The position numbers and the translations under genes are program-made. From Lacrimispora saccharolytica (GTDB lineage: Bacteria; Bacillota; Clostridia; Lachnospirales; Lachnospiraceae): a DNA stretch of 64,000 nucleotides. Of this stretch, positions 21,415-42,958 are shown piece after piece; positions within the stretch are counted from its first letter, which is position 1; each line of letters starts with the position of its first letter. The notes under the pieces were generated by a model. It was not told the origin of the DNA and made no database searches. It was given only the letters and a program-made list of their open reading frames with translations. The DNA is taken from assembly GCA_016899975.1 (NCBI GenBank), contig JACJJN010000002.1, positions 62,001-126,000 of the forward strand, written 5' to 3'.

Positions 21415-21675
21415 AAAAAATCTCTGCGCGTGCGGCATACGGGTGCGGCGGGCGGCTGCAGCGGCGTGGAAAATCTATGCATTCCGGAGCACCTCCGGAC
21501 GGGCACCGGAGCGATTCATCAGGAATGCCTTATGCATTCCCGATTCAGCGCTCCTCAGCCTCAGTGCGTGTGGCACTTCGCCTGTCCCGTCCTCCGGCGC
21601 TTCGGAACGCTTAGATTTTCTCACGCCGCTGCAGATGCCCGCTGCACCCGTATGCCGCACGCGCAGGGATTTTTT
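21415..21675. repeat. Long hairpin repeat, copy 2 (261 bp)
   Basis: Outer arms 21415-21446 and 21644-21675 are complementary at 31 of 32 positions and start and end with the same AAAAAATC/GATTTTTT blocks as copy 1. Inner stems again pair GGAAAATCT with AGATTTTC. The core GGACGGGCACCGGAGCG is identical to copy 1. The rest of the arm sequence differs completely from copy 1 but remains self-complementary. The loop is about 90 bp longer and contains tatgcattcc twice. It separates the NifU-like operon from the transporter operon. Confidence 0.85.
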
Positions 21676-21901: not shown

Positions 21902-21975
21902 TTGAATATAGAGAATTGAAAAAGAGAGAAAAATTCAACAAATTGACAAATGGAGAACGGGAGGGAGGAGTGGTT

Positions 21976-23235
21976 ATGAAGTGGAGGCAAGGGTTAAAAA
22001 AAGTGATGGGATTTGTTCTTGCCGGAATTTTTGCGGTAGGTATGATGGGATGTCAGGGTGGTCAGGAAGAGGAGGAAATCCTGACGGTCTGTGTGGACAG
22101 TGCGAACGAGAGCATAGGTTCTATGATAGCGGATGGGTGGTCAAATCTGGACGATGGGGTCAAGACGGAGCTTGTAGTGATACCGTCGGATGAGACGGCG
22201 GCACAGGCAAAGATCAAAGAGCTGCGTACGGAGATTATGTCAGGCGGCGGACCGGATGTTTTTCTTTTTTCAACCGACGGAAATCAGCGGCTGTTTGAAG
22301 ATCCGAAAAAAGCCATGTATTCAGACGCTTTTCTGCCGCTGGATGACTATATGAGCGATGCCAAGTATATGAAACCGGAGGAATGGAACCAGACTGTTCT
22401 GGAATCTGGAAGAACAGAGGAAGGACAGGTTGTGCTTCCCGTACAATATACCTTTCATGCATTCGCTTTCCAGTCCGCGTGTCTGAAAAATCCCGGGGAG
22501 ATTCCTTCGTCCCTGGAAGAGATTCTTGCATGTGAGGATCCGCTGATCGGGGAATATGCGACTTTTTATCCGGATTCTATTATGTTTCATTCTTTTGGGG
22601 AACTGGCGGATTATCAGGAGGAAAAACTCTTCTGTTCCAAGGAGGATCTGCAGAAACGCGTGGAGGAAATGATTGCTCATCAGTCTAAATGGCTCTCCAA
22701 AACGGAAGCGGAAGGAATCGTTGCCTGCGGTGAAGTAGACGGAACATTTTTTTTCAATGTCGACCGCTTTTCAGGGGAAGAGGAGGCGGTGTTTGCTTTT
22801 CCAAATGATCAAGGAGGCGTAACCGCTCGTGTAAACACATATGCAGAGATCAATAGAAATACGGAACTTCCCGAGCAGGCGTTTGCTGCACTGGACTTTT
22901 TACTTAGCAATGAAGTAATCAGCGGTGAAGGTTTTCCGTATGGAGAAGATAAATGGGCAGGAAGAGGCGACAGTTTTTTTCCGGGAACAGGAGGAATTTC
23001 TGTGAATCAGACACTTGCACAAGAGGCATGCAAATCCCAAACAGCCAAAGACGCATTCCAGAAAATGAACAGCCAGATCACTGCCGTCCGTTATCCCTCA
23101 ATCCTGGATCAGGAAATTCAACAGATGTATTGGGCAGCTGATTTGAACGCATTTGGTCCGCAGTCAGACGAGGCGACGAGAAAGGAGCTGGTCAGTCGAG
23201 CGTATGAGCGGATGGAAATGCAACTGTCTGAATAA
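21976..23235 (+). CDS. Extracellular solute-binding lipoprotein, copy 1
   Basis: The 419-residue protein has a lipoprotein signal peptide ending in GMMGC, with the lipidated cysteine at residue 26. The rest resembles family 1 sugar-binding proteins: GGGPDVFLFST (about 87-97), then PLDDYMSDA, and NDQGGVTARVNTYAEINRN in the second lobe. It should capture an oligosaccharide outside the membrane for the two permeases downstream. GGGAGGGAGGAG precedes ATG 21976. A second, closely similar copy follows after 37 bp. The substrate is inferred from the adjacent glycosidases only. Confidence 0.85.
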   Translation: MKWRQGLKKVMGFVLAGIFAVGMMGCQGGQEEEEILTVCVDSANESIGSMIADGWSNLDDGVKTELVVIPSDETAAQAKIKELRTEIMSGGGPDVFLFSTDGNQRLFEDPKKAMYSDAFLPLDDYMSDAKYMKPEEWNQTVLESGRTEEGQVVLPVQYTFHAFAFQSACLKNPGEIPSSLEEILACEDPLIGEYATFYPDSIMFHSFGELADYQEEKLFCSKEDLQKRVEEMIAHQSKWLSKTEAEGIVACGEVDGTFFFNVDRFSGEEEAVFAFPNDQGGVTARVNTYAEINRNTELPEQAFAALDFLLSNEVISGEGFPYGEDKWAGRGDSFFPGTGGISVNQTLAQEACKSQTAKDAFQKMNSQITAVRYPSILDQEIQQMYWAADLNAFGPQSDEATRKELVSRAYERMEMQLSE

Positions 23236-23272
23236 CTCAGTGACAAATAGAGAAAGGGAAGGAGGAGCGGTT

Positions 23273-24544
23273 ATGAAATGGAAGAAAGTGGTCAGAAAAG
23301 TGGTGGGATTTGGTTTGACTGGAATTTTAGCGATAGGTATGATGGGATGTCAGGGTGGTCAGGAAGAGGAGGAAATCCTGACGGTCTGTGTGGACGTTGG
23401 GACAGAGGACATTGGTTCTATGATAGCGGACGGCTGGTCGAATCTGGATGAGGGGATGAAGACGGAGCTTGTGGTGATACCGTCGGATGAGACGGTGGCA
23501 CAGACAAAGATCAAAGAACTGCGTACGGAAATTATGTCAGGCGGCGGACCGGATGTTTTTCTTTTATCAGCTGACAGAAATCAGAGGCTGTTTGAAGATC
23601 CGAAAAAAAACATGTACTCGGATACTTTTTTGCCATTGGATGATTATATGAGCGATGCCAAGTATATGAAACCGGAGGAATGGAACCAGGCTGTTCTGGA
23701 ATCCGGAAGAACAGAGGAAGGACAGGTTGTGCTCCCAGTGTTATATTCCTATTATGCGTTTGCTTTCCAGACCTCTTGTCTGGAAAACCCCGGGGAGATT
23801 CCTTCATCTCTGGAAAAATTCCTTGCATGCGAGGACCCGCTGATCGGGAGCGATGTGGCTTCTTTTTCACATCTTGCCATGCTTTATTCTTTTGGGGAAT
23901 TGGCGGATTATCAGGAGGAAAAACTTTTCTTCTCTGAAGAGGATCTGCTGAAACGTGTGGAGGAAATACTTGATTATAAAATAAAATGGCCCTTAAAATG
24001 GTCTTTAGATACGGAAGTGGAAGGAGTCGTTGCTCACGGTGAAGTAGACGGAACGTTTTTCTCCAATGTTGACCGTTTTCCAGGGGAAGAAGAGACGGTG
24101 TTTGCTTTTCCAAACGATCAGGGAGGCGTAACCGCCCGTGTAAAGATGTATGCAGCGATTAACAGAAATACGGAACTTCCCGAGCAGGCGTTTGCAGCAC
24201 TGGACTTTCTGCTCAGCAATGAAGTAATCAGCGGTGAAGGGTTTCCGTATGGAGAAGATAAATGGGCAGGAAGAGGCAACTGGTTTTCTCCTGCACTGGG
24301 AGGAATTTCTGTGAATCAGACACTTACACAGGAGGCATGTAGATCCCAAACAGCCAAAGACGCACTCAAGAAAATGAACAGCCAGATCACTGCCGTCCGT
24401 TATCCCTCAATCCTGGATCAGGAAATTCAACAGACGTATCTGGAAGCCGGTTTGAACGCATCTGGTCCACATCCAGACGAGGCGGCGAGAAAAGATTTGG
24501 TCAGCCGGGCGTATGAGCGGATGGAAATGCAGCTGTCTGAATAA
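23273..24544 (+). CDS. Extracellular solute-binding lipoprotein, copy 2 (tandem duplicate)
   Basis: The 423-residue protein is clearly a duplicate of the preceding gene, with the same lipobox GMMGC at residue 26, the same GGGPDVFL segment and a near-identical C-terminus. Differences cluster in the middle: about residues 155-185, and a region around 215-240 where a few extra residues (including KWPLKWSLDTEVEG) occur. Such clustering may mark altered ligand contacts, so the two copies may bind different oligosaccharides. GGAAGGAGG precedes ATG 23273. The duplication must be fairly recent given the long identical stretches in the DNA. Confidence 0.85.
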   Translation: MKWKKVVRKVVGFGLTGILAIGMMGCQGGQEEEEILTVCVDVGTEDIGSMIADGWSNLDEGMKTELVVIPSDETVAQTKIKELRTEIMSGGGPDVFLLSADRNQRLFEDPKKNMYSDTFLPLDDYMSDAKYMKPEEWNQAVLESGRTEEGQVVLPVLYSYYAFAFQTSCLENPGEIPSSLEKFLACEDPLIGSDVASFSHLAMLYSFGELADYQEEKLFFSEEDLLKRVEEILDYKIKWPLKWSLDTEVEGVVAHGEVDGTFFSNVDRFPGEEETVFAFPNDQGGVTARVKMYAAINRNTELPEQAFAALDFLLSNEVISGEGFPYGEDKWAGRGNWFSPALGGISVNQTLTQEACRSQTAKDALKKMNSQITAVRYPSILDQEIQQTYLEAGLNASGPHPDEAARKDLVSRAYERMEMQLSE

Positions 24545-27328: not shown

Positions 27329-27487
27329 GCTGTTCCTTTTTTGAAACTTGTTTTATGTATGTGCTGTATCAATGGGTCTGTTCCATATCATCTAAAAAAG
27401 AGGGAAAACCTCTCTAAAATTTTCCGTATTTTTTCCGGGAGCCTCATGATAAAATCGGAAAAGTAAATGCATCAGAAGGAGGACAAA

Positions 27488-29860
27488 ATGAGAGAACTTT
27501 CCTATCAGTATAAAAATCTGCCGATCCCGGGCGGCGGATATGTGACAGGTTTTATTTTCCATAAAAAGAAGAAAGGACTTCTGTATCTGAGAACCGATAT
27601 TGGAGGAACTTACCGCTTCGATCCGGAGCATCAGCGGTGGTGCAGCCTGATTTCCCATGTGACGCCGGAGGATTTGAGCGAGACGTTCCCGATCTCCGTG
27701 GCGCTGGATGATGATCGGCCGGAGCGGCTTTACATCGCCTGCGGAGAGAACCGGGAGAAGAGCGGCGTGCTGGCGATCTCGGAGGATTACGGCGAGACTT
27801 TCCGCTATGAGAAAATCCCGGTGATGATCCACGGAAATCTCAACGGACGCGGAACGGGAGAACGGCTGGCCGTAGACTGTATGGATTCCGACCGGCTCTG
27901 GTTTGCCAGCCAGCAGGAGGGACTCTGGACCAGCAAAGACCGGGGCGCGCACTGGGAAAAGTGCAGCGGACTTCCGGAAGAATATCTGACCTTTGCCGGA
28001 TGGGTCGGACAGACGCTGCTTGTGGGTACCGCCGGTGTGACGACGGCTCCCGAATCCGGAAAAAGAGGACACAGCCTGTATATCTCCGTCGATAGAGGCA
28101 GGACATTTGTTCTGCTGGAAGAGCCGGTAAGCCGTGAAATCGAGGGATGCCGGATGAACGGGCTGGTGGCGCAGAGATTCAGCGTGGATGAGAAGTATCT
28201 GTATGTGACGTTTGCGTCCACCGGAAGGAGATCCTATGTGCTGGAGAACGGCTACAGCTGTGATTCCGGAGACACCATTGACGGACGGATCGTCCGGTAT
28301 GCCATCGGTGCGGACGGTACCATCGGAGCGATGGAGGAGATTACGCCGGGCAGTGTCAGCGAAGTTACGGGGATCGGTCAGGAGCAGATCCGGCAGGGAG
28401 ATTCTCTGGAATATGGATTTTCCGGAATCAGCGCCTCACTGCAGACGTCGGGACTGGTGATCGCTTCGACGATCGTCAAGGATGACGGAGACAGTATTTT
28501 TCTGTCCGAAGATTACGGGACAACCTGGAAACAGATCCTGTTTGATCTCTTTGAGGGAAAGATTTCTTTCCGCGCTCCGTATATGCGGCCGGAGTGCAAT
28601 GGCGGTCATTCGCTGATCCACTGGCTCAGTGATCTTCAGATTGATCCGTTCTGCGACGACACGGCGTGGTTTAATACGGGAACGGGTGTGTTCCGGACGG
28701 AGAATCTGAAGGAGAAAGACTGCTGCTTTACCGATTGGTGCGACGGTCTGGAGGAGACAGTACACCTGAACGTCTACAGTATGCCGAAGGGCGACGTCCA
28801 GGTGATCGATATTCTCGGAGATCTTGGCGGTTTTGCCTTTGAGGATCTGGATCAGCCCTGCGGCAATTCTTTTGCCGACAGCGAGGGCAACCGGTATATC
28901 ACCTGTATCAATGCGGATTTTTCGGACGAGCATCCGGAGGATCTGGTTGTGACGCCGAGAGGAAACTGGAAGGGAAAGACAAAGGGCGGTCTGATCCTTT
29001 CCGAAGACCAGGGAAGAACGTTTACAAGGCTGGAACTTCCCTATGGACTGTCGGAGGATCTGGACGAGGCGTTCCGGAACATCGAGCAGCCGAATGTAAA
29101 TTCCGGATGGGCGGCATTGTCCCCGGACGGCAAGACCATCGTCTGGTCCGTGGCGGATGTGATCGAACTTCCGGTGAGCCGTATGCTGGTCAGCCAGGAC
29201 AGGGGAAAAACGTTCCGGATCGCGGAAGTATATCAGGCGGACGGGACGAAAAAAATCACAGGAAATGTCAAAGTCTTTTCTGACCGTGTGGACAGCAGTC
29301 TGTTTTACGGATTCGGGGATCATTCGGATTTCTATGTCAGCCGGGACGGCGGTCTGACGTTCCACGAAAAGAAGCTCCCCGCAGAATTTCCCTGTGTGGA
29401 TTTCGGAAAGATCGACTGTGCGAACAAGACGGAAGTACGGGGCGAGACAGGAAAATCCGGCGTCTTTTACCTGGCGCTTGCGGAGCAGGGACTCTGGAAG
29501 CTGCGGTATGACCGGGAGACAGAGGAAAACGGAGCAGAAGAGAAGATTACCGTGAAACGGCTGTCCGGCGAGGGCGACACGGTATTCTGTGTCGGACTTG
29601 GCGTTGGAAGACCCGGCGGCGATTATTATACGGAAGAAAAAGCGCTGTATGTCAGCGGCAGGATCGGCGGACATTACGGATTTTACCGGACGCTGGATGA
29701 GGGCAGAACCTTTGAGCGTCTGAACACCGACCGGCAGCAGTTTGGAGAGATCCACAGCATTGACGGAGACTGCCGTGTATTCGGAAGATTTTTCCTGGCG
29801 ACCGGTTCCAATGGAGTTCTGTATGGAGAGCCCAAGGAGCAGGAGAACAGAAAAGGCTGA
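27488..29860 (+). CDS. GH74-like xyloglucanase/BNR-repeat glycosidase, cytoplasmic
   Basis: The 790-residue protein begins PGGGYVTGFIFH, then LLYLRTDIGGTYRF, the hallmark start of GH74 enzymes where the Asp of RTDIGG is catalytic. Many BNR/Asp-box-like units follow (SEDYGETF, SVDRGRTF, SEDYGTTW, SEDQGRTF, SQDRGKTF, SRDGGLTF), consistent with two beta-propellers. No signal peptide is present, so it should act on imported oligosaccharides, cutting the glucan backbone of xyloglucan-type chains. ATG 27488 follows AAGGAGG. It sits between the sugar transporter operon and the GH31/GH29 frame, 40 bp upstream of the latter. Confidence 0.75.
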   Translation: MRELSYQYKNLPIPGGGYVTGFIFHKKKKGLLYLRTDIGGTYRFDPEHQRWCSLISHVTPEDLSETFPISVALDDDRPERLYIACGENREKSGVLAISEDYGETFRYEKIPVMIHGNLNGRGTGERLAVDCMDSDRLWFASQQEGLWTSKDRGAHWEKCSGLPEEYLTFAGWVGQTLLVGTAGVTTAPESGKRGHSLYISVDRGRTFVLLEEPVSREIEGCRMNGLVAQRFSVDEKYLYVTFASTGRRSYVLENGYSCDSGDTIDGRIVRYAIGADGTIGAMEEITPGSVSEVTGIGQEQIRQGDSLEYGFSGISASLQTSGLVIASTIVKDDGDSIFLSEDYGTTWKQILFDLFEGKISFRAPYMRPECNGGHSLIHWLSDLQIDPFCDDTAWFNTGTGVFRTENLKEKDCCFTDWCDGLEETVHLNVYSMPKGDVQVIDILGDLGGFAFEDLDQPCGNSFADSEGNRYITCINADFSDEHPEDLVVTPRGNWKGKTKGGLILSEDQGRTFTRLELPYGLSEDLDEAFRNIEQPNVNSGWAALSPDGKTIVWSVADVIELPVSRMLVSQDRGKTFRIAEVYQADGTKKITGNVKVFSDRVDSSLFYGFGDHSDFYVSRDGGLTFHEKKLPAEFPCVDFGKIDCANKTEVRGETGKSGVFYLALAEQGLWKLRYDRETEENGAEEKITVKRLSGEGDTVFCVGLGVGRPGGDYYTEEKALYVSGRIGGHYGFYRTLDEGRTFERLNTDRQQFGEIHSIDGDCRVFGRFFLATGSNGVLYGEPKEQENRKG

Positions 29861-29900: not shown

Positions 29901-32381
29901 ATGCATATGTATCAGGAAGGCTCCCGACTGATCCTGGCGGAAGGAAAAACTCAGGTCTGGATCGAACCCTGGGGTGAAAATTCCCTTCGCGTCCGTATGA
30001 CAGCAATGCCGAAGATGGACGACAACGACTGGGCGCTGACGGAGACGCCGAAGGAGACAAAGGCGGAAATTTCTTTTGAAACCATTGATACGACAGATCC
30101 CTGGTACCGCTCAGAGGAATATGCCCAATACCATCAGACCGGGACACAGGCTTCCCTGGTCAATGGAAAGATTACGGCGAAGGTTTCCCATGAGGGATGG
30201 ATCAGCTTTTACAACCAGAAGGGAGAGCTGCTGACAGAAGAATACTGGCGGACCCGTGACCGGATCAACCGATACTGTGTGCCCCTGAGAGTCACCGGCA
30301 GAGAACTGAAACCGATCCAGGGCACGGAGGAATTTGAGCTGACCGCACGGTTCGAGGCGTTTGACGACGAGAAGATTTTCGGAATGGGACAGTACCAGGA
30401 GAAGCATCTGAACAAAAAGGGTGCGGTGCTGGAGCTTGCCCACAGAAACAGCCAGGCAAGCGTTCCGTTTATGGTTTCCAGCAGAGGCTACGGTTTTCTC
30501 TGGAACAACCCGGCGATCGGTACAGCGGCGTTCGGAACCAACAAGACAGAGTGGCATGCCAAAAGTACGAAAAAGCTGGATTACTTTATCACAGCGGGCG
30601 ATACGCCGGCGGAAATCGAGGAGCAGTATTCGGCTGCAACAGGGCGTACCCCGATGATGCCGGAGTATGGTCTTGGATACTGGCAGTGCAAGCTGCGTTA
30701 CCGCACTCAGGACGAGCTTCTGGCGGTGGCGAGAGAGCACAAGAGAAGAGGCCTGCCGATGGATGCCATCGTCATCGATTTCTTCCACTGGACCAGACAG
30801 GGCGACTTCAAGTTTGAGCCGAGAGACTGGCCGGATCCGGAAGCAATGGTAAAAGAGCTGAAAGAGATGGGAATCGAGACGGTTGTCTCTGTCTGGCCGA
30901 CCATCGATGAGCGCAGCGAGAATTTCGGTACCATGAGTGAGATGGGCTATCTGGTCAATGCGGACCGCGGCAATCAGAACCATATGACATGGATGGGAAA
31001 TACGGTCTTCTATGATGCGACCCATCCGGGCGCACAGAAATTTGTGTGGGAGAAATGTAAGGAAAATTATTATAAGAAGGGCATCCGCTGCTTCTGGCTG
31101 GATGAGGCGGAGCCGGAATACGGCCCTTATGATTTTGACAATTACCGCTACTATGCGGGACCGGCGCTGCAGTGCAGCAACGTGTATCCGGTGGGATATG
31201 CGAAAGGCTTCTATGAAGGCCTGAAGGCGGAGGGAGAGAAGGATATCCTGAGCCTGGTGCGCTGCGCATGGGCGGGCAGCCAGAAATCCTTCAATCCCAT
31301 CCGCTTCCAGCCGGAGGAATGGGCGCAGACAGCCAAGGACTGCGGCTTCAAGTACCTCATCCTCACCACCAAGCACCACGACGGCTTCTGCCTGTGGGAC
31401 ACCAGGTATTCGGACTATAAGGTGACGGCTCCCGATTGTCCGTACCATGTGAGCGAGCATGCGGATCTGGTTAAGAGCATGTTCGACGCCTTCCGGGAAA
31501 AGGGACTGGGCATCGGCGCTTATTTCTCCAAGGCTGACTGGCACACCCCCTATTATCGCACCCCGGAGCTTCCGGACCCGAACCCTTCCGACCGCGGTCC
31601 CATGTACAGCCCCGCTGCGGAGCCGGAGCGCTGGGAAAACTTCGTCCAGTACACCAAAAACCAGGTCCTGGAGCTCTGCGAAGGTTACGGACCCATTGAC
31701 ATCCTTTGGTTTGACGCCGGATGGGTCTGCGCAAGTAACGGTCAGGATATCCGCTTGGGTGAGATTGTGGACGAAGCCCGGAAAATCCAGCCCGGCATCC
31801 TTTCGGTGGACCGCACCGTCGGCGGCCCTTACGAAAACTACGTGACCCCCGAAATGTGCGTGCCGGAAGAACCGCTGGGTGTGCCGTGGGAGAGCTGCCT
31901 CACCCTGGGGGCAGATTTTACCTATGAATACGCCGATCGGTACAAATCCCCCCGGGAGTTGGTGAACGCTCTGGTGGGCATCGTTGCGAAAGGCGGAAAC
32001 CTGGCACTGAACGTCAGCCCCCAGCCGGACGGCCGCATTCCGGTGGACGCCATGGACAGTCTGCGGGGCTTGGGCGAATGGCTTAAGGTCTACGGCGAAG
32101 CGATTTATGGCACCCGTGTCTGCGCGCCTTATCAGTCCGGGAATATTTCCTTTACCAGGAAGGGCGATGCGGTTTACGCTATCCGGCTGTTCCCCGTCGC
32201 CCAGGAATCGGTTGATTCCAAGCTGTTTATTCCTTACGCCGGCAAGGTCTCCAAGGTGACTATGCTGGACAGCGGCGAGGATGTATCCTTTGTTCCAGGT
32301 GAGGGCGGCATTACCGTCGCCGTGCCGGCAGGACGCCGCGGCGGCTCCGCGCCCATTGCACTGGTGTTCAAATTGCAGTAA
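29901..32381 (+). CDS. Chimeric GH31-GH29 reading frame (both domains truncated)
   Basis: The 826-codon frame joins parts of two glycosidases. Residues 1 to about 462 are a GH31 alpha-xylosidase-like enzyme up to RCAWAGSQ, with the nucleophile in FWLDEAEPEYG (Asp401). The next GH31 block, which carries the acid/base aspartate, and the C-terminal sandwich domains are missing. From about residue 463 (FNPIRFQPEEW) it is a GH29 alpha-L-fucosidase, with KHHDGFCLWD and the nucleophile in LWFDAGW (Asp605), lacking its first 45-60 residues including the usual HWG segment. The second half uses noticeably more C-ending codons. It most likely arose by a deletion that fused neighbouring genes. Activity of either half is doubtful. 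GAGGAGG precedes the ATG. Confidence 0.8.
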   Translation: MHMYQEGSRLILAEGKTQVWIEPWGENSLRVRMTAMPKMDDNDWALTETPKETKAEISFETIDTTDPWYRSEEYAQYHQTGTQASLVNGKITAKVSHEGWISFYNQKGELLTEEYWRTRDRINRYCVPLRVTGRELKPIQGTEEFELTARFEAFDDEKIFGMGQYQEKHLNKKGAVLELAHRNSQASVPFMVSSRGYGFLWNNPAIGTAAFGTNKTEWHAKSTKKLDYFITAGDTPAEIEEQYSAATGRTPMMPEYGLGYWQCKLRYRTQDELLAVAREHKRRGLPMDAIVIDFFHWTRQGDFKFEPRDWPDPEAMVKELKEMGIETVVSVWPTIDERSENFGTMSEMGYLVNADRGNQNHMTWMGNTVFYDATHPGAQKFVWEKCKENYYKKGIRCFWLDEAEPEYGPYDFDNYRYYAGPALQCSNVYPVGYAKGFYEGLKAEGEKDILSLVRCAWAGSQKSFNPIRFQPEEWAQTAKDCGFKYLILTTKHHDGFCLWDTRYSDYKVTAPDCPYHVSEHADLVKSMFDAFREKGLGIGAYFSKADWHTPYYRTPELPDPNPSDRGPMYSPAAEPERWENFVQYTKNQVLELCEGYGPIDILWFDAGWVCASNGQDIRLGEIVDEARKIQPGILSVDRTVGGPYENYVTPEMCVPEEPLGVPWESCLTLGADFTYEYADRYKSPRELVNALVGIVAKGGNLALNVSPQPDGRIPVDAMDSLRGLGEWLKVYGEAIYGTRVCAPYQSGNISFTRKGDAVYAIRLFPVAQESVDSKLFIPYAGKVSKVTMLDSGEDVSFVPGEGGITVAVPAGRRGGSAPIALVFKLQ

Positions 32382-32415
32382 ATTGATAAGGAGCGCGGCT
32401 TTTTCTGAAAAAATA

Positions 32416-32478
32416 CCCCGGGGAAATCTGAACAGCAGACTGTCTAAGTTTAGCTGTCCGGATTTCTCCGGGGATTTT
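32416..32478. terminator. Bidirectional terminator after the chimeric glycosidase gene
   Basis: CCCCGGGGAAATC (32416-32428) pairs with GATTTCTCCGGGG (32461-32473) with one wobble. A-rich sequence lies before it and ATTTTCT after it, so it serves both the glycosidase gene and the convergent small membrane protein gene. Confidence 0.8.
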
Positions 32479-32533
32479 CTGTTGTGAAGCAACTATGGTC
32501 TTCGGTGTTTGTTTGAAAAGTGCGTTCTACGGA

Positions 32534-32842
32534 TTAACGCTTAACGCTGTGCATCCCCTGATCCTGATTTTTGCCGACAAAGACAGGAATACAGTTCAAA
32601 AGAATGATGAAAACGGCATATCCGCATAAAACAGGGAATATGGGTGGAATAACATCCGATAAGGCAGCCCAGTCTCCGTTCAGAATCCAGCGGTAAATCT
32701 GGTGATACCACAGTAACAGCGTGAACACCATGAATATAATGGCAGCGGCTGCGGACCAGATCTTGTTCCGGCTTTTTCTGAATGCAAAGATCCATGTCAT
32801 CAAAGTCAATAAGATACTGAATGCGCCTGTAAAAATCCACAT
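32534..32842 (-). CDS. Small membrane protein of unknown function
   Basis: The 102-residue protein has three hydrophobic segments (about 3-20, 28-45 and 67-90) separated by short charged loops (FRKSRNK; YRWILNGDW). No family is recognised. The start follows AAAGGGG on the minus strand. It lies 65 bp downstream of the NCS2 permease on the same strand with no terminator between them, so it may be co-transcribed. Confidence 0.55.
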   Translation of the reverse strand: MWIFTGAFSILLTLMTWIFAFRKSRNKIWSAAAAIIFMVFTLLLWYHQIYRWILNGDWAALSDVIPPIFPVLCGYAVFIILLNCIPVFVGKNQDQGMHSVKR

Positions 32843-32907
32843 ACGTTTGTCCCCCTTTATTCATGAAAAAATCACTTCACAACGAGCATCGGTACCGGCA
32901 GTATTGA

Positions 32908-34263
32908 TCAGTTACGATTGCCGGAAGGTTTATCCTTTGGAAGGATTACATTCAACAGGATCGCTGCCAGAGTAGCAACTACAACCGGAGATTTTCCGAA
33001 GATCATGGTTACCCACTCCGGGAAAGCTGCCAGAGACGCAGGGGTCTGGGAGATTCCCATGCCAAGCGCAACGGAAAGACCAACAATCGAGGAATTGCGG
33101 AAGGTCATTTCCTGGCGCATGATCAGCTTGATTCCGGTCATGGCAATGGAGGCGAACACGGAGATCGTCGCACCGCCGAGGACACACTGGGGAATCGTGG
33201 TGAGCAGCGCCGAGAATTTCGGGAAAAATCCGGCGATCAGCATGATAACGGCTGCAAGACCAAGGACACAGCGGTTGACTACCTTTGTTGTGGTGACAAT
33301 GCCGACGTTCTGGCTGTAAGTCGCCGTTGGCAGTCCGCCAATCAGCGCGCACAGGATATTGGTAATACCGTACATCAGGATACCGCCCTGAAGTTCCTTG
33401 TTCTGCGGCTCACGGTTCATGCTTCCGACGGTGGTTGCCGAGAAATCGCCGATCGCCTGGATGGAGTTGATCGCGAACAGAAGACCGATCGCAATGCATG
33501 CGGACGGCTCAAACTTTACGCCAAAGTGGATCGGCAGCGGCGCCTGGAACACACCGGCGGAGGAAATGCCGGAAAGGTCCACCAGTCCAAGACAGGCGGC
33601 GAAGGCATAACCTGCGATAATTCCCACCAGGATCGAGGCAAGCTTCAGAGTTCCCTTGGCAAAATGGTTCAGTCCTACGACAACAACCAGGGTAAACAGA
33701 GCGGCAAGCCAGTTTTTCCAGGAACCGTAATCCGGATTGGAGGTTCCTCCTGCCATGTAATTGATCGCAGTGGGGTACAGGGAAAGTCCGATGGTGAAGA
33801 CGACCGTGCCGGTTACCAGCGGAGGGAACAGTACACGGATCTTACGGATGAAGATACCGACGAGCAGCGCGACACAGCCTCCGACAATCTGGGCGCCGAG
33901 GATCGTCGCGATGTCAAAACTTTCAGCGATCGCCTGCATGCTTGGCACGTAAGCAAAGCTGATACCCATAATGACCGGCAGTGAAGCGCCAAGCTGGAAT
34001 TTCTGGGTACGGACGAAGGGAAACAGCTGCAGCAGTGTGCTGAGTGCGGATGCGATCAGAGCGGCCTGGATCAAGATGACCCTGTCGCGGTCGCTGACCT
34101 GAGCAACGCCTGCAACGATGATCGCCGGCGTTACGCATCCCACGATCGCGGCGACTACATGCTGGAGCGCCAACGGCAGAGCCTGTCCGAAGCCTGGCAC
34201 GCCGTTAAGGTCAAAGACAGAAGCGTGGCTTCTGCCGGAAGATGAATGGTTTGATTTCGACAT
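32908..34263 (-). CDS. NCS2 family nucleobase permease
   Basis: The 451-residue protein has about 12-14 hydrophobic segments and NCS2 motifs: LQHVVAAIVG near the N-terminus, NSIQAIGDFSATTVG, and NREPQNKELQGG in the conserved substrate region. The family takes up xanthine, uric acid or uracil with protons or sodium. The pattern resembles the xanthine/uric acid branch (PbuX-like) more than UraA, but I am not sure. ATG 34261-34263 follows AGGAGG. No purine riboswitch was recognised in the about 200 bp upstream. Confidence 0.88.
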   Translation of the reverse strand: MSKSNHSSSGRSHASVFDLNGVPGFGQALPLALQHVVAAIVGCVTPAIIVAGVAQVSDRDRVILIQAALIASALSTLLQLFPFVRTQKFQLGASLPVIMGISFAYVPSMQAIAESFDIATILGAQIVGGCVALLVGIFIRKIRVLFPPLVTGTVVFTIGLSLYPTAINYMAGGTSNPDYGSWKNWLAALFTLVVVVGLNHFAKGTLKLASILVGIIAGYAFAACLGLVDLSGISSAGVFQAPLPIHFGVKFEPSACIAIGLLFAINSIQAIGDFSATTVGSMNREPQNKELQGGILMYGITNILCALIGGLPTATYSQNVGIVTTTKVVNRCVLGLAAVIMLIAGFFPKFSALLTTIPQCVLGGATISVFASIAMTGIKLIMRQEMTFRNSSIVGLSVALGMGISQTPASLAAFPEWVTMIFGKSPVVVATLAAILLNVILPKDKPSGNRN

Positions 34264-34421
34264 AATATCCTCCTGATTATTACTTGCCAGGGACATCATC
34301 TGTCCGCGGCATATGTATTACTCTTATACTTTACACAATCTTTATAAAAATTGCAATTTTTTTTTAGACATCGATGGCGATATACCAAACGCGTTATGGA
34401 AAATTCCAAGTTCCCGGATAA

Positions 34422-35437: not shown

Positions 35438-35554
35438 TGATACATTTTGGCCTGTCCATCTCACGGAACAGTGTACCAGATGCGCAAAGCGATGTGACAG
35501 ACTGGGTTGCGGGACTGGATCTGTAAAGATGTAACCAAAAAGGAGAGAAACAAA

Positions 35555-35870
35555 ATGCAGAAAAGAAAAGGTTTAAATCTTCTGATGACAGCCCTGATCA
35601 TTGTTGTGATGTCTTATCAGGCGGTCGGAAATCTTTTCCATGAAGCGGCAGGAATCCTGCTTCTTATCCTGTTTTTGATACATAATGCGTTGAACTGGAA
35701 ATGGTATAAAAATATCGGAAAAGGAAAATACAGCAGATTTCGTATCCTGATGGTGACAGTGAACCTGTTGACACTGATCAGTATGCTGCTGGCGATGGCG
35801 ACAGGAATCTATGTGTCACAAAGCCTCTTTTCCTCTTTATGGGGAATGCGGGAAGCCGTTTTTTCTTCCG
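35555..35870 (+). pseudogene. DUF4405 membrane protein gene, 3' truncated
   Basis: From ATG 35555 (preceded by AAGGAGAG) the frame encodes about 100 residues of a DUF4405 protein. A first membrane segment (MTALIIVVMSYQAVG), LLILFLIHNALNWKWY with the conserved histidine, and a third segment (VNLLTLISMLLAMATGIYVS) are present. It then breaks off after LFSSLWGM, where intact members continue with a conserved HMLASYWGF-type region holding more histidines. The sequence after the break matches part of the long hairpin repeat family. By chance the frame stays open into the fucosidase gene, producing an apparent 608-residue fusion that I do not believe is real. Confidence 0.65.
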
Positions 35871-35875
35871 GTCAC

Positions 35876-35930
35876 GCAGCCGCCCGCCGCACACATAGCG
35901 CCCTGCCGCCCCTTCCGGTGTTTTCGTCCG
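35876..35930 (-). repeat. Partial copy (one arm) of the long hairpin repeat
   Basis: On the minus strand CGGACGAAAA (35930-35921) and a 17-mer beginning GTGCGGCGGG (35892-35876) occur in the same order as in copy 2 (21409-21418 and 21443-21459), with spacing of 38 versus 34 bp. No complementary second arm is present. It abuts the break in the DUF4405 gene. Confidence 0.5.
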
Positions 35931-36028
35931 AATCAACAAAACCCCATTTTCAAAACGACGGATTCGTGATACAATCAGACAGACATATGAATTCGGTATT
36001 CATACCAACGAAGAGAGGAGAAAAAGCG

Positions 36029-37333
36029 ATGTATCAGTTTGACAGGGCAGCTTATGAAAAACGAATGGAATGGTACAGAGATGCCAGATTCGGCATGTTT
36101 ATCCACTGGGGGCTTTACGCGATACCGGCGAGAGGAGAGTGGGTCCGGAGTGTGGAAGAAATCCCGAAAGAAGACTATATGAAATATTTTTATGAATTCA
36201 ACCCCACCGATTACGATCCGAAAAAATGGGCGCAGGCGGCAAAGGACGCGGGAATGAAGTATGTGGTACTGACCGCGAAGCACCACGACGGTTTCTGTCT
36301 GTTCGACAGCCAGTACACAGATTTCAAGTCCACGAACACAAAATGCGGCAGAGACCTGGTAGCGGAGTACGTGGAGGCGGTTCGCGAGGCCGGCCTGAAG
36401 GTGGGGCTGTATTTTTCTCTGATCGACTGGTACCACGATGATTTTCCTCACTACGGAGACAGAAACCATCCGATGCGGAACCATCCGGAGTACAGCAATG
36501 AAAACCGTGATTTTGACCGTTACCTGACCTATATGCACAATCAGGTCAGAGAGATCTGTACCAATTACGGAAAGATCGACGTTCTCTGGTTTGATTTTTC
36601 CTATGACGAACTGAGAGGCGAAGCGTGGAAAGGTACGGAGCTGATCGATATGGTGCGCAGTCTGCAGCCGGATGTGATCATTGACAACCGTCTTGAGGTC
36701 AGCGGTGAAGGCTATGGCTCCCTTGCCACCGGAAATCCTGCACCGTACCACGGTGATTTTGTCAGCCCCGAGCAGATGATCCCGCCGAACGGGATCCAGG
36801 ACGTCCATGGACAGGATATCGCCTGGGAGGCATGTGTGACTATGAACAACAACTGGGGATACCATGCGACGGACCATTACTTTAAACCAGCCTCCATGTT
36901 GATCAAAAAGCTGGTGGAATGTGTGTCCAAGGGCGGAAATCTTCTTCTGAATGTGGGACCTGACGCCAAAGGGAACATTCCGGAGGAATCTCTGGAGCGT
37001 CTGGCGGTGATCGGAAAATGGATGAAGAAGAACGGCGACAGTATCTATGGCTGCGGCAAGGCGGAGATTGAGAAGCCGGATTTCGGACGTGTGACAGCGA
37101 AAGGAAAGAAACTTTATTTCCATATGTATGAAAACACCATCGGTCCGGTGCCGCTGCCGGGACTGAAGAAAGAGGAGATCGCATCCATCCGCTGGCTGGC
37201 GACTGGTGCGGAAATCCCCGTTTCTACAAGCTGGGTACACAGTGATTATCCGGACATCGTGTTTGCCAATCTGGGACCGGATCCGGTGCTGCCGGACGAG
37301 ATCGATACGGTGCTGGAAGTGACTTTGAAGTAA
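36029..37333 (+). CDS. Alpha-L-fucosidase, GH29
   Basis: The 434-residue enzyme begins with MFIHWGLYAIPARGEW (about 16-31), the GH29 start missing from the chimeric copy at 29901. It has AKHHDGFCLFDS (about 84) and the nucleophile in VLWFDFSYDE (Asp189). No signal peptide is present, so it should remove fucose from imported oligosaccharides. The length is at the short end for GH29 and lacks an added carbohydrate-binding module. ATG 36029 is chosen for its GAGAGGAG site; the open frame extends upstream only through the DUF4405 remnant. CutC follows after a tandem repeat. Confidence 0.9.
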   Translation: MYQFDRAAYEKRMEWYRDARFGMFIHWGLYAIPARGEWVRSVEEIPKEDYMKYFYEFNPTDYDPKKWAQAAKDAGMKYVVLTAKHHDGFCLFDSQYTDFKSTNTKCGRDLVAEYVEAVREAGLKVGLYFSLIDWYHDDFPHYGDRNHPMRNHPEYSNENRDFDRYLTYMHNQVREICTNYGKIDVLWFDFSYDELRGEAWKGTELIDMVRSLQPDVIIDNRLEVSGEGYGSLATGNPAPYHGDFVSPEQMIPPNGIQDVHGQDIAWEACVTMNNNWGYHATDHYFKPASMLIKKLVECVSKGGNLLLNVGPDAKGNIPEESLERLAVIGKWMKKNGDSIYGCGKAEIEKPDFGRVTAKGKKLYFHMYENTIGPVPLPGLKKEEIASIRWLATGAEIPVSTSWVHSDYPDIVFANLGPDPVLPDEIDTVLEVTLK

Positions 37334-38200: not shown

Positions 38201-40723
38201 ATGTTTTTGGAATACAACAGAAAAAGAATTGAACGCCGGTATGAACAGCTGTGCCGGGAATTCCCGGATGTTTTCGGTCCGGTGGATGAAAAGATCAGCG
38301 CCTGCCGGGAGCCTGTCGCGCTAGCGATGAAGTGGATGTACGGGGCAATGCCCTGGAGCGACAGGGGAAATTATCCTTTTGAAACCTTTCTGGATTTTGC
38401 GGAACATGGAGTCTGGCTCTGGGAGACGAAGGAATCGGTCCGCCGTCTGCCGGAGGAAATTTTCCTGAATTACGTTTTGTACCATCGGGTCAATGAGGAA
38501 GAAATCCGTCCATGCCGTCGCCTGTTCTATGACGGTATGAAAGAACAGCTGGGAGAGCTTGAGGGCCGTGAGGCCGCAATTGAGATCAACTATTGGTGTG
38601 CCGCGGAGGCGACGTACCAGTCGTCGGACGACCGGACGCTGTCGGCGCTGGCTGTCTGGCTGAGAGGCAGCGGACGCTGTGGAGAAGAGTCAACATTTAC
38701 CGTCAACGCCATGCGAAGCGCCGGGATTCCTGCCCGCCAGGTCTATGCGCCCAAATGGTCCCACTGTGATGACAACCATGCGTGGGTGGAGGTTTGGACC
38801 GAAGGAAAATGGCAGTTTACCGGAGCCTGTGAACCGCTGCCGATCCTGAATAAGGGATGGTTTACCAACGCGTCCTCCCGGGCGATGATGGTGCATGCCC
38901 GGTGGTTTGACAACATCCTGCCGGAGCAGGAGGAACGGATCGGGAAAGAGGGCATGGTGACCATGCTCAATGAACTGAGCCGGTACGCGGCGGTAAAGAC
39001 CGTGGAGGTCACCGTCCGTATGGAGGATGGCAGCCCCGCAGAATCCGCGCAGGTACAGTTTGAGGTACTGAATTATGCGGAGTATGCGCCGATCGCGGAG
39101 ACCGTGACGGATGGCGAGGGAAAAACAGTTCTGACCACCGGGCTTGGCACGCTGCACCTCTGGGCGCAGAAGGACGGTCAGACCGGAGAGGCGTTTCTTG
39201 ACGTCCGGGAAAACAGCAGCTGCGAGATTTGTCTGGGAACCCGGGAACAGGAATACGGTTGGACAGACTGTGATCTGATCGCTCCGGTGGATACGCCGGT
39301 GAACACGGATCAGCCGACGCCGGAACAGGCGGAGGATGGGAAACGCCGTCTCGAAGAGGCGGAACAGAAGCGCAGAGAAAAAACAAAGGATTGGGAGAAT
39401 CCGGAACTCCGGGCGTTCTGCAGTTATCTGGATACTGTGGAGGGAAACAAGGCAGCCTGCGGCAGAGCGCTGCTGGAAACTCTGACAGAGAAAGACCGGA
39501 CGGACTGCCGCTGTGAAATCCTGAAGCATCACCTGGAGGAGACGATATCATGCCTTGAGGAAGCGGTGCCTGAACCGGGGACAGAGGAGTATGCGCGGTT
39601 CGTATCCTGTGTTCTGAACCCAAGGGTAGAGCATGAAGTGATGACTCCGTACCGCCGTTCCCTTTTGGAGTGGATGTCCGCTGAGGAGCAAAGGAACTTC
39701 CGGAAGGAGCCGAAGCTTTTATGGGAGAAAATCTGCCGTCAGATACAGGAACGTCCGGAGGAAGAGCGCAGCAGTCTGATCACAGCGCCGGCGGCGTGTG
39801 TGAGAACGGGAGTCGGAAGCCGGCGTTCGAAGGAAATCCTGTTTGTGGCTGCTGCGAGAAGCCTCGGCATTCCGGCGCGGCTGAATCCGGATGACGGAGC
39901 GATGGAGTACTGGAGAGACGGCAGCTTTGCGCCTGTGCTTGCGGAATGTGAAAAGAACTGCCGCCTGACGCTGAAGTCGACGGGAGATACCGCCTGGAAA
40001 TATTTTCAGAACTGGAGCATTGCCCGCAGAACGGAGTATGGCTGGCGGTCCCTGCAGCTGACGGACAAAAACTGGGCGGAGGACGGATGCCTGGAGCTGT
40101 GGCTGGAAGCGGGAACCTACCGGCTGATCACGTCCAACCGCCTGCCCAACGGAAATCAGTTTGCGCGGCAGTGCCAGATCTTTCTGGAGCCGGGAAGCTG
40201 CCGGGAACTGACGCTGGAACTGCGGGAAGCAGACCTTTCCGATATGCTGGAATCCATCGATCTGCCGGAATTCCAGGTAAATGACGGGAAGGGAACCCCG
40301 GTCACCGCTTCGGAACTGACGGACGGCGCCTGCCGGGTGATGATCTGGCTGGAGGAGAGCCGAGAGCCGACGGAACATATCCTCAATGAAATGATGGAGC
40401 AGGCGGAGGCGTTCCGCGCCTGGATGTCCCGGATCCTGTTCGTGGTCCGTTCGGAGGATGCCCTGCAGGATCCTACGGTTGAAAAAGCCCTGCGGACGTT
40501 TCCGGAGATTCCGGTCTATTACGACGATTTCGTGGAAAATGTTTATCTGCTGGGGCGCAGGATGTACGTGGATCACGAAAAGCTGCCGCTGATCCTGGTA
40601 ACGGACGGGAAACGCAATGGAATCTATGCCGCCAGCGGATATAATGTGGGAACTGGTGAAATGCTGCTCCGTATCCTGGAAGCGCGAGAGAAAAAGAAAG
40701 AAAATGACAGTTCAGCCAGCTGA
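38201..40723 (+). CDS. Large transglutaminase-like protein with a second degenerate core
   Basis: The 840-residue protein has no signal peptide. A transglutaminase-like core at about 150-215 has the nucleophile in GRCGEEST (Cys160), DDNHAWVEVW (His193) and GACEPLP (Glu211 in the usual acidic position). Residues about 260-350 look like an Ig or carboxypeptidase-regulatory-like beta domain, and about 365-400 form a charged helix. Near 540-570 a second core appears (SRRSKEILFVAAARSLGIPARL), but the cysteine is replaced, so it is probably inactive. The C-terminus (about 740-830: ILFVVRSEDALQ, then LPLILVTDGKRNGIYAASGY) looks thioredoxin-fold-like. It may process peptides or proteins together with the M28 peptidase 36 bp downstream. 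Confidence 0.7.
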   Translation: MFLEYNRKRIERRYEQLCREFPDVFGPVDEKISACREPVALAMKWMYGAMPWSDRGNYPFETFLDFAEHGVWLWETKESVRRLPEEIFLNYVLYHRVNEEEIRPCRRLFYDGMKEQLGELEGREAAIEINYWCAAEATYQSSDDRTLSALAVWLRGSGRCGEESTFTVNAMRSAGIPARQVYAPKWSHCDDNHAWVEVWTEGKWQFTGACEPLPILNKGWFTNASSRAMMVHARWFDNILPEQEERIGKEGMVTMLNELSRYAAVKTVEVTVRMEDGSPAESAQVQFEVLNYAEYAPIAETVTDGEGKTVLTTGLGTLHLWAQKDGQTGEAFLDVRENSSCEICLGTREQEYGWTDCDLIAPVDTPVNTDQPTPEQAEDGKRRLEEAEQKRREKTKDWENPELRAFCSYLDTVEGNKAACGRALLETLTEKDRTDCRCEILKHHLEETISCLEEAVPEPGTEEYARFVSCVLNPRVEHEVMTPYRRSLLEWMSAEEQRNFRKEPKLLWEKICRQIQERPEEERSSLITAPAACVRTGVGSRRSKEILFVAAARSLGIPARLNPDDGAMEYWRDGSFAPVLAECEKNCRLTLKSTGDTAWKYFQNWSIARRTEYGWRSLQLTDKNWAEDGCLELWLEAGTYRLITSNRLPNGNQFARQCQIFLEPGSCRELTLELREADLSDMLESIDLPEFQVNDGKGTPVTASELTDGACRVMIWLEESREPTEHILNEMMEQAEAFRAWMSRILFVVRSEDALQDPTVEKALRTFPEIPVYYDDFVENVYLLGRRMYVDHEKLPLILVTDGKRNGIYAASGYNVGTGEMLLRILEAREKKKENDSSAS

Positions 40724-42831: not shown

Positions 42832-42844
42832 GTTATCTTCTGTT

Positions 42845-42941
42845 GCAGCGAGATGCGACTTATATACCGCAAGATTACTCTTTTCGTCTTTCCAGCGACT
42901 CTCTATCCGGAAAGCACTTAACGCATATAAACCTACTCTGC
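42845..42941 (-). ncRNA. Tetrahydrofolate (THF) riboswitch
   Basis: The minus-strand sequence contains the conserved elements of the THF class in order: GAGTAGG, then GCGTTAAGTG, then a stem with GACGAA, GAGTAATC, GCGGTAT and the closing GCATCTCGCTGC that pairs back to the 5' strand. It sits upstream of folT, a common location for this class. It is expected to lower folT translation when folate is abundant. Confidence 0.88.
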
Positions 42942-42958
42942 ATTTCTATGTTGGATTC

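Follow-up and report, generated by a model that had tools for sequence, protein, structure and literature searches.

A reading frame on the forward strand of the 64,000-nt stretch of DNA analysed here (the window) joins the 5' part of a GH31 alpha-xylosidase gene to the 3' part of a GH29 alpha-L-fucosidase gene. We consider this frame probably to be a young fusion pseudogene, in which a recent non-homologous replacement, probably by foreign DNA, broke both enzymes and left a product that is likely inactive. Intact partners of the two parts were found in relatives, and the fusion was found in one genome only among the congeners and the genomes searched.

Domain composition of the fused protein

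The frame (29901-32381, plus strand) comprises 826 codons and is open throughout, with no stop inside in the ORF reading of the window, which contains no ambiguous bases. Pfam and sequence comparison assigned residues 1-462 to a GH31 alpha-xylosidase and residues 463-826 to a GH29 alpha-L-fucosidase in one frame. The original prediction had claimed an in-frame GH31-GH29 fusion, and the order of the Pfam domains, GH31 then GH29 within the 826 codons, confirmed it. Alignment of the halves to references agreed with this, residues 17-462 matching PDB 5zn6 and residues 463-826 matching GH29 structures. Since CAWAGSQ starts at residue 455 and SFNPIRF at residue 463, the switch lies at residues 462/463 (window 31284-31287), in line with the predicted change near residue 462 from CAWAGSQ to FNPIRF.

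The GH31 part (codons 1-462, 29901-31286, plus strand) was identified by Pfam, PRK10658 and structure-sequence matches and is 93-95% identical to the GH31 of three congeners. Gal_mutarotas_2 covers residues 24-205; Glyco_hydro_31_2nd covers residues 250-462 with profile positions 1-224 of 328 alone, so that a full-length GH31 TIM-barrel domain is absent. The nucleophile motif WLDEAEP, from residue 399, aligned with intact enzymes and keeps Asp401; it is shared with MeXyl31 (PDB 5zn6), of which residues 18-449 align with residues 17-462 of the fusion (E 7.7e-175). In contrast to the fusion, which leaves GH31 at residue 462, an intact congeneric GH31 (L038:10585-12654) has 227 more residues, with the motifs WSGD and WWTSDIGGF. 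This C-terminal part is strongly conserved across five aligned intact relatives. Asp471 of WSGD lies nine residues beyond the break, and the WSGD segment is absent from the fused protein. Asp471 is the likely acid/base that was lost, an assignment that rests on the numbering of YicI: its Asp482, the GH31 acid/base, is consistent with the lost position, residue 462 of the fusion corresponding to PRK10658 profile position 473. As had been predicted, the xylosidase half keeps its nucleophile and ends ahead of its likely acid/base.

The GH29 part (31287-32381, plus strand), defined by Pfam and alignment, ends at its own stop codon and lacks the N-terminal 95 residues. Alpha_L_fucos covers residues 457-733 with profile positions 82-345 of 345; with the profile start missing and HWG absent, there is no full GH29 catalytic domain in the fused protein. 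The last three quarters of GH29 fucosidases (PDB 6gn6, 2wvv, 1hl8; relatives L066-L070) align with residues 463-826, whereas the intact relative L042 also has the first 95 residues, including HWG at residues 50-52. The predicted loss of the HWG start was borne out by comparison with this relative. The GH29 at 36029, to which the prediction had compared the fused part, does carry a GH29 domain but is a separate gene that shares 41% identity with the fused part. This native GH29 lies in an ORF at 35507-37333 (plus strand; domain match from about 36023) and has an orthologue in the congeners G001 and G005. Near it, an 840-residue protein with a transglutaminase core (38201-40723) also has DNA matches in G001 and G005.

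The GH29 nucleophile Asp605 is kept within WFDAGW (from residue 603), which aligned with solved enzymes, and TTKHHDGF is kept as well. Passages of PMC10154630 place the nucleophile of GH29 enzymes at the end of beta 4 and the acid/base at the end of beta 6, so that both could fall in the retained part; the barrel start does not. Judged from sequence, Glu651 in VTPEM is a candidate acid/base, subfamily A acid/base residues being described in the same passages as aligning poorly (PMC10154630). Because the GH31 part, its barrel incomplete, lacks its acid/base and the barrel start is missing from the GH29 part, the product, if made, is predicted to be an inactive two-piece protein.

The locus in congeneric genomes

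Among six congeners compared, the GH31 is present in G001, G003 and G005, where the shared part is 93-95% identical. The locus has the same order there as in the window: a BNR/sortilin-type repeat protein (27467-29860, plus strand; identified by Pfam, presumably GH74-like), conserved upstream of GH31, then GH31, then a permease of the Xanthine/uracil permease family on the other strand (32908-34299, minus strand), where collinearity with the congeners resumes. GH31 runs past the junction point in all three and is full length in G001 (689 residues) and G003. The G005 GH31 (L040:5451-7340) differs from its G001 and G003 counterparts in its last residues, which may come from a frameshift close to where a short contig ends.

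DNA matches to the window break off at 31287 (G001), 31287 (G003) and 31285 (G005) and start again at 32933, 32935 and 32935, respectively, or at 32915 for G005 with shorter words. Homology to the congeners is interrupted between 31285-31287 and 32915-32935, where DNA of about 1.63 kb found in the window alone (31287 to about 32914), with no DNA match at the locus of the three congeners, takes the place of the GH31 3' end. If G001 represents the state before the event, about 0.9 kb would have been lost in the replacement. At the left junction (31284-31287, plus strand) the window equals the native GH31 of G001 through CAGAAAT and equals the GH29 relative L066 from AAATCC onward. The overlap, AAAT, is common to both stand-ins, which suggests that the join was made at very short identity, insofar as G001 and L066 resemble the true parents. 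The right junction lies somewhere within 32382-32935.

The two genes occur separately and intact in relatives, the arrangement that the prediction had suggested looking for, GH31 in G001 and G003 and GH29 in G002, G004 and G006. The latter three have no close GH31 orthologue (best 53-56%); their intact relatives of the fused GH29 are 70-78% identical to it and lie in other surroundings, in G004 and G006 between YaaA-like and RfbB-like genes (names read from translations).

The original prediction had regarded the junction as a deletion scar, which is only partly right. A simple deletion between a neighbouring GH31 and an intact GH29 would agree with a join that falls within two genes of the same direction, and GH31-containing clusters for xyloglucan oligosaccharides may also carry fucosidase genes (PMC4780118). 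One distant genome (L031) does have GH31 followed by GH29 in the same direction, both less than 35% identical to the query proteins. However, a GH29 of the fused kind was not found beside GH31 at any of the three congeneric loci, and the intact GH29 of G004 and G006 stands among other genes. Only 5 of 141 loci (3 distinct places) matched both proteins, none with close orthologues adjacent, many of the loci having short flanks. Together with the divergent composition and the out-of-family DNA match described below, this makes a simple deletion quite unlikely, and we prefer a replacement.

Origin of the GH29 piece

Third-position composition is weak evidence that the GH29 piece is foreign. The GH29 half has a GC3 of 0.742 and a GC3 skew of -0.178; for six genes or gene parts on the plus strand nearby (GH74-like, GH31 part, native GH29, transglutaminase-like, M28 and one binding protein) the values are 0.479-0.674 and +0.07 to +0.32; counter-cases are the GH31 of one congener (GC3 0.736) and the native permease on its own strand (skew -0.155). 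The best DNA match to the GH29 half lies outside the family, on a Candidatus Merdivicinus contig (L075), with 82% identity over 823 bases; it covers 271 of 364 residues, stopping there because the contig ends. Next came Candidatus Gallacutalibacter (76%) and two Lachnospiraceae bins (74-75%), and the DNA identity to the three congeners with the gene was 70-72%. A tree of 22 rows grouped the GH29 half into a clade of 11 rows with 100/100 support, which also holds congener genes; within that clade its nearest neighbour was unsettled, and the bootstrap had not settled. The GH29 piece thus came from elsewhere than the local locus and probably from a foreign donor, the candidate nearest by DNA being L075.

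The rest of the window-only stretch (32382-32914) has no DNA match to the congener loci. It contains a small ORF on the minus strand (32534-32842; 102 aa), membrane-protein-like by eye, with no Pfam match, for which no counterpart was found in the six congeners and weak relatives were found in three other genomes (295 searched, own genome among them). Three terminator-like hairpins were matched in the scanned 2 kb, among them one at 32457-32472, where chance alone predicts 2.6. An exact 14-base direct repeat occurs at 32396-32409, just behind the GH29 stop, and at 32769-32782. The spacer between GH31 and the permease varies among congeners, with 203 bases from stop to stop in G001 and 1024 in G003, so that 32382-32914 may reflect local variation instead of belonging to the foreign piece. 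A dispersed intergenic repeat of about 130 bases at window 21480-21610 (33 full or partial matches in the genome including the window copy, 75-100%, both strands) is strongly foldable (z -5.2), and a copy related to it lies just behind GH31 in G003 (L039:14895-14997).

In the course of events that we favour, non-homologous recombination would recently have swapped the 3' third of a previously intact GH31 gene of the xyloglucan type, together with the DNA behind it, for foreign DNA that carried the 3' three quarters of a GH29 gene and perhaps also the small unrelated ORF, the reading frame presumably being kept by chance. An insertion followed by a deletion would leave the same arrangement as a one-step replacement.

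Copies in the same genome and reality of the join

A search of the own genome for a second copy of the window-only stretch found none, and only 117 bases of the native GH29 matched by DNA. Searching the same genome with the full G001 GH31 for the lost C-terminal part revealed only paralogues of at most 56% identity, three of them full length at 45-56%. A search for the missing GH29 start with the G006 GH29 turned up nothing but the native GH29 (38%) and a single weak match at 28%. An invertible gene switch or shufflon was considered and rejected because close second halves are absent from the genome; long inverted repeats are absent in 30900-33300 (best pair 19 bases, 79%). An insertion element was likewise rejected, the stretch being nearly unmatched by DNA elsewhere in the genome and no bounding repeats having been found.

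The junction is known from one draft assembly (201 contigs, 3.25 Mb, completeness 99.93%), in which the window belongs to contig C125. An assembly chimera, in which the GH29 stretch of another gut bacterium in the sample was misjoined into the contig, would be in keeping with the number of contigs, with the several records of the group and GH29 relatives that are metagenome assemblies, and with a single-copy stretch at whose junction the composition shifts. It would also account for a junction seen in no other genome searched and for a GH31 half free of decay. Against it, the contig returns to the native permease in conserved order, and two wrong joins would therefore be needed. The stand-ins for the parents share just 4 bases at the left join; the word length at which assemblers join is far above this. 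Moreover, a broken native copy should leave its close GH31 3' end elsewhere in the assembly, where it was not found. We regard a chimeric assembly as unlikely and the replacement as probably real.

Distribution of the fusion and conservation of its halves

When the whole fused protein was compared with 61 genomes, the own genome's match alone covered both sides among the matches listed (best first). Within the genus, the fusion was found only in the own genome among all 7 of 7 genomes searched at E 1e-120 or better. Across 397 genomes of the family, both sides were covered in the own genome only among the matches listed (best first), as they were in 392 genomes from the order and 391 from the class (E 1e-30 or better; among the matches listed). 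These genome sets overlap and include the own genome. A degenerate junction pattern occurred once in the window and gave no match in genome_contigs or viral_contigs, from which the own genome is possibly absent. In literature on Fusicatenibacter and xyloglucan, GH31/GH29 fusions, illegitimate recombination and pseudogene fusions, no title or abstract start among those listed describes such a fusion.

Private changes in the GH31 half were counted in four genomes, at codons where the other three agree and with outgroup GH31 genes left out. They numbered 26 synonymous and 0 non-synonymous in the window, against 31.5 and 3.5 in G001, 57.8 and 9.2 in G003, and 37.5 and 4.5 in G005; had the window branch changed as fast as the other three, about 3.5 non-synonymous changes would be expected in it. 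The event is therefore recent, or the half is still constrained, and the prediction of a recent event fits the former. A rough bound, which assumes a site ratio, is that a half released from selection for longer than about 4% of the branch would be expected to show some non-synonymous changes. Pairwise Ka/Ks values were 0.027-0.037 for the GH31 half. For the GH29 half they were 0.061-0.072 against L075, L068 and L069, intact-gene pairs (n=3) giving 0.037-0.087 and other pairs being saturated. Taken together, the lack of decay in either half suggests that the event is young, that the halves are still constrained, or that the join is not real.

The prediction had also offered, as an alternative, selection on a binding role still left to the protein. 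A functional chimera maintained by selection, for instance for xyloglucan-oligosaccharide binding or as a regulator or scaffold, would be compatible with an 826-codon frame without a stop and with the unchanged amino acids of the GH31 half. The latter, however, are expected equally from a young event, so that selection gained no positive support, and the fusion occurs in one genome only among those searched, with both barrels cut inside the catalytic domain. Nor was a confident fold predicted: the fusion reached a mean pLDDT of 50.0 and a pTM of 0.36 with a 12-row alignment, used in place of a 30-row one whose identities suggested that GH29 rows had been laid over the GH31 part. We conclude nothing on its fold, because the intact congeneric GH31 used as a control (5 rows) was predicted as poorly (mean pLDDT 44.8, pTM 0.40). 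A selected function appears highly improbable, and a young pseudogene remains our preferred reading.

Fusion pseudogenes arise by non-homologous recombination in bacterial genomes, and the present fusion is ordinary in kind. It resembles them in that two truncated genes are joined in frame at few shared bases, in one genome and without decay, and nothing distinctive sets it apart beyond the two enzyme families.

Function of the locus and consequences of the fusion

Ruminiclostridium cellulolyticum possesses a cluster of ABC-transporter and GH31 genes for xyloglucan oligosaccharides (PMC4780118). The window is similar in that it codes for solute-binding proteins, two permeases and a BNR protein besides GH31, and by analogy we infer that xyloglucan oligosaccharides are the substrate of the locus. 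Successive ORFs at 21916-23235 and 23153-24544, both matching SBP_bac_1, suggest a tandem pair of solute-binding proteins. Elsewhere in the window, a THF riboswitch was detected at 42844-42942 on the minus strand (Rfam RF01831, 88.8 bits).

An annotation based on domain content would name the fusion a bifunctional xylosidase-fucosidase, yet both of its catalytic domains are incomplete. The locus offers an example of foreign DNA probably overwriting the end of a gene with the frame kept, for which the congeners provide the state before the event. For the organism, loss of this GH31 would make side-chain removal weaker if paralogues did not compensate, and the remaining GH31 and GH29 genes in the genome may do so.
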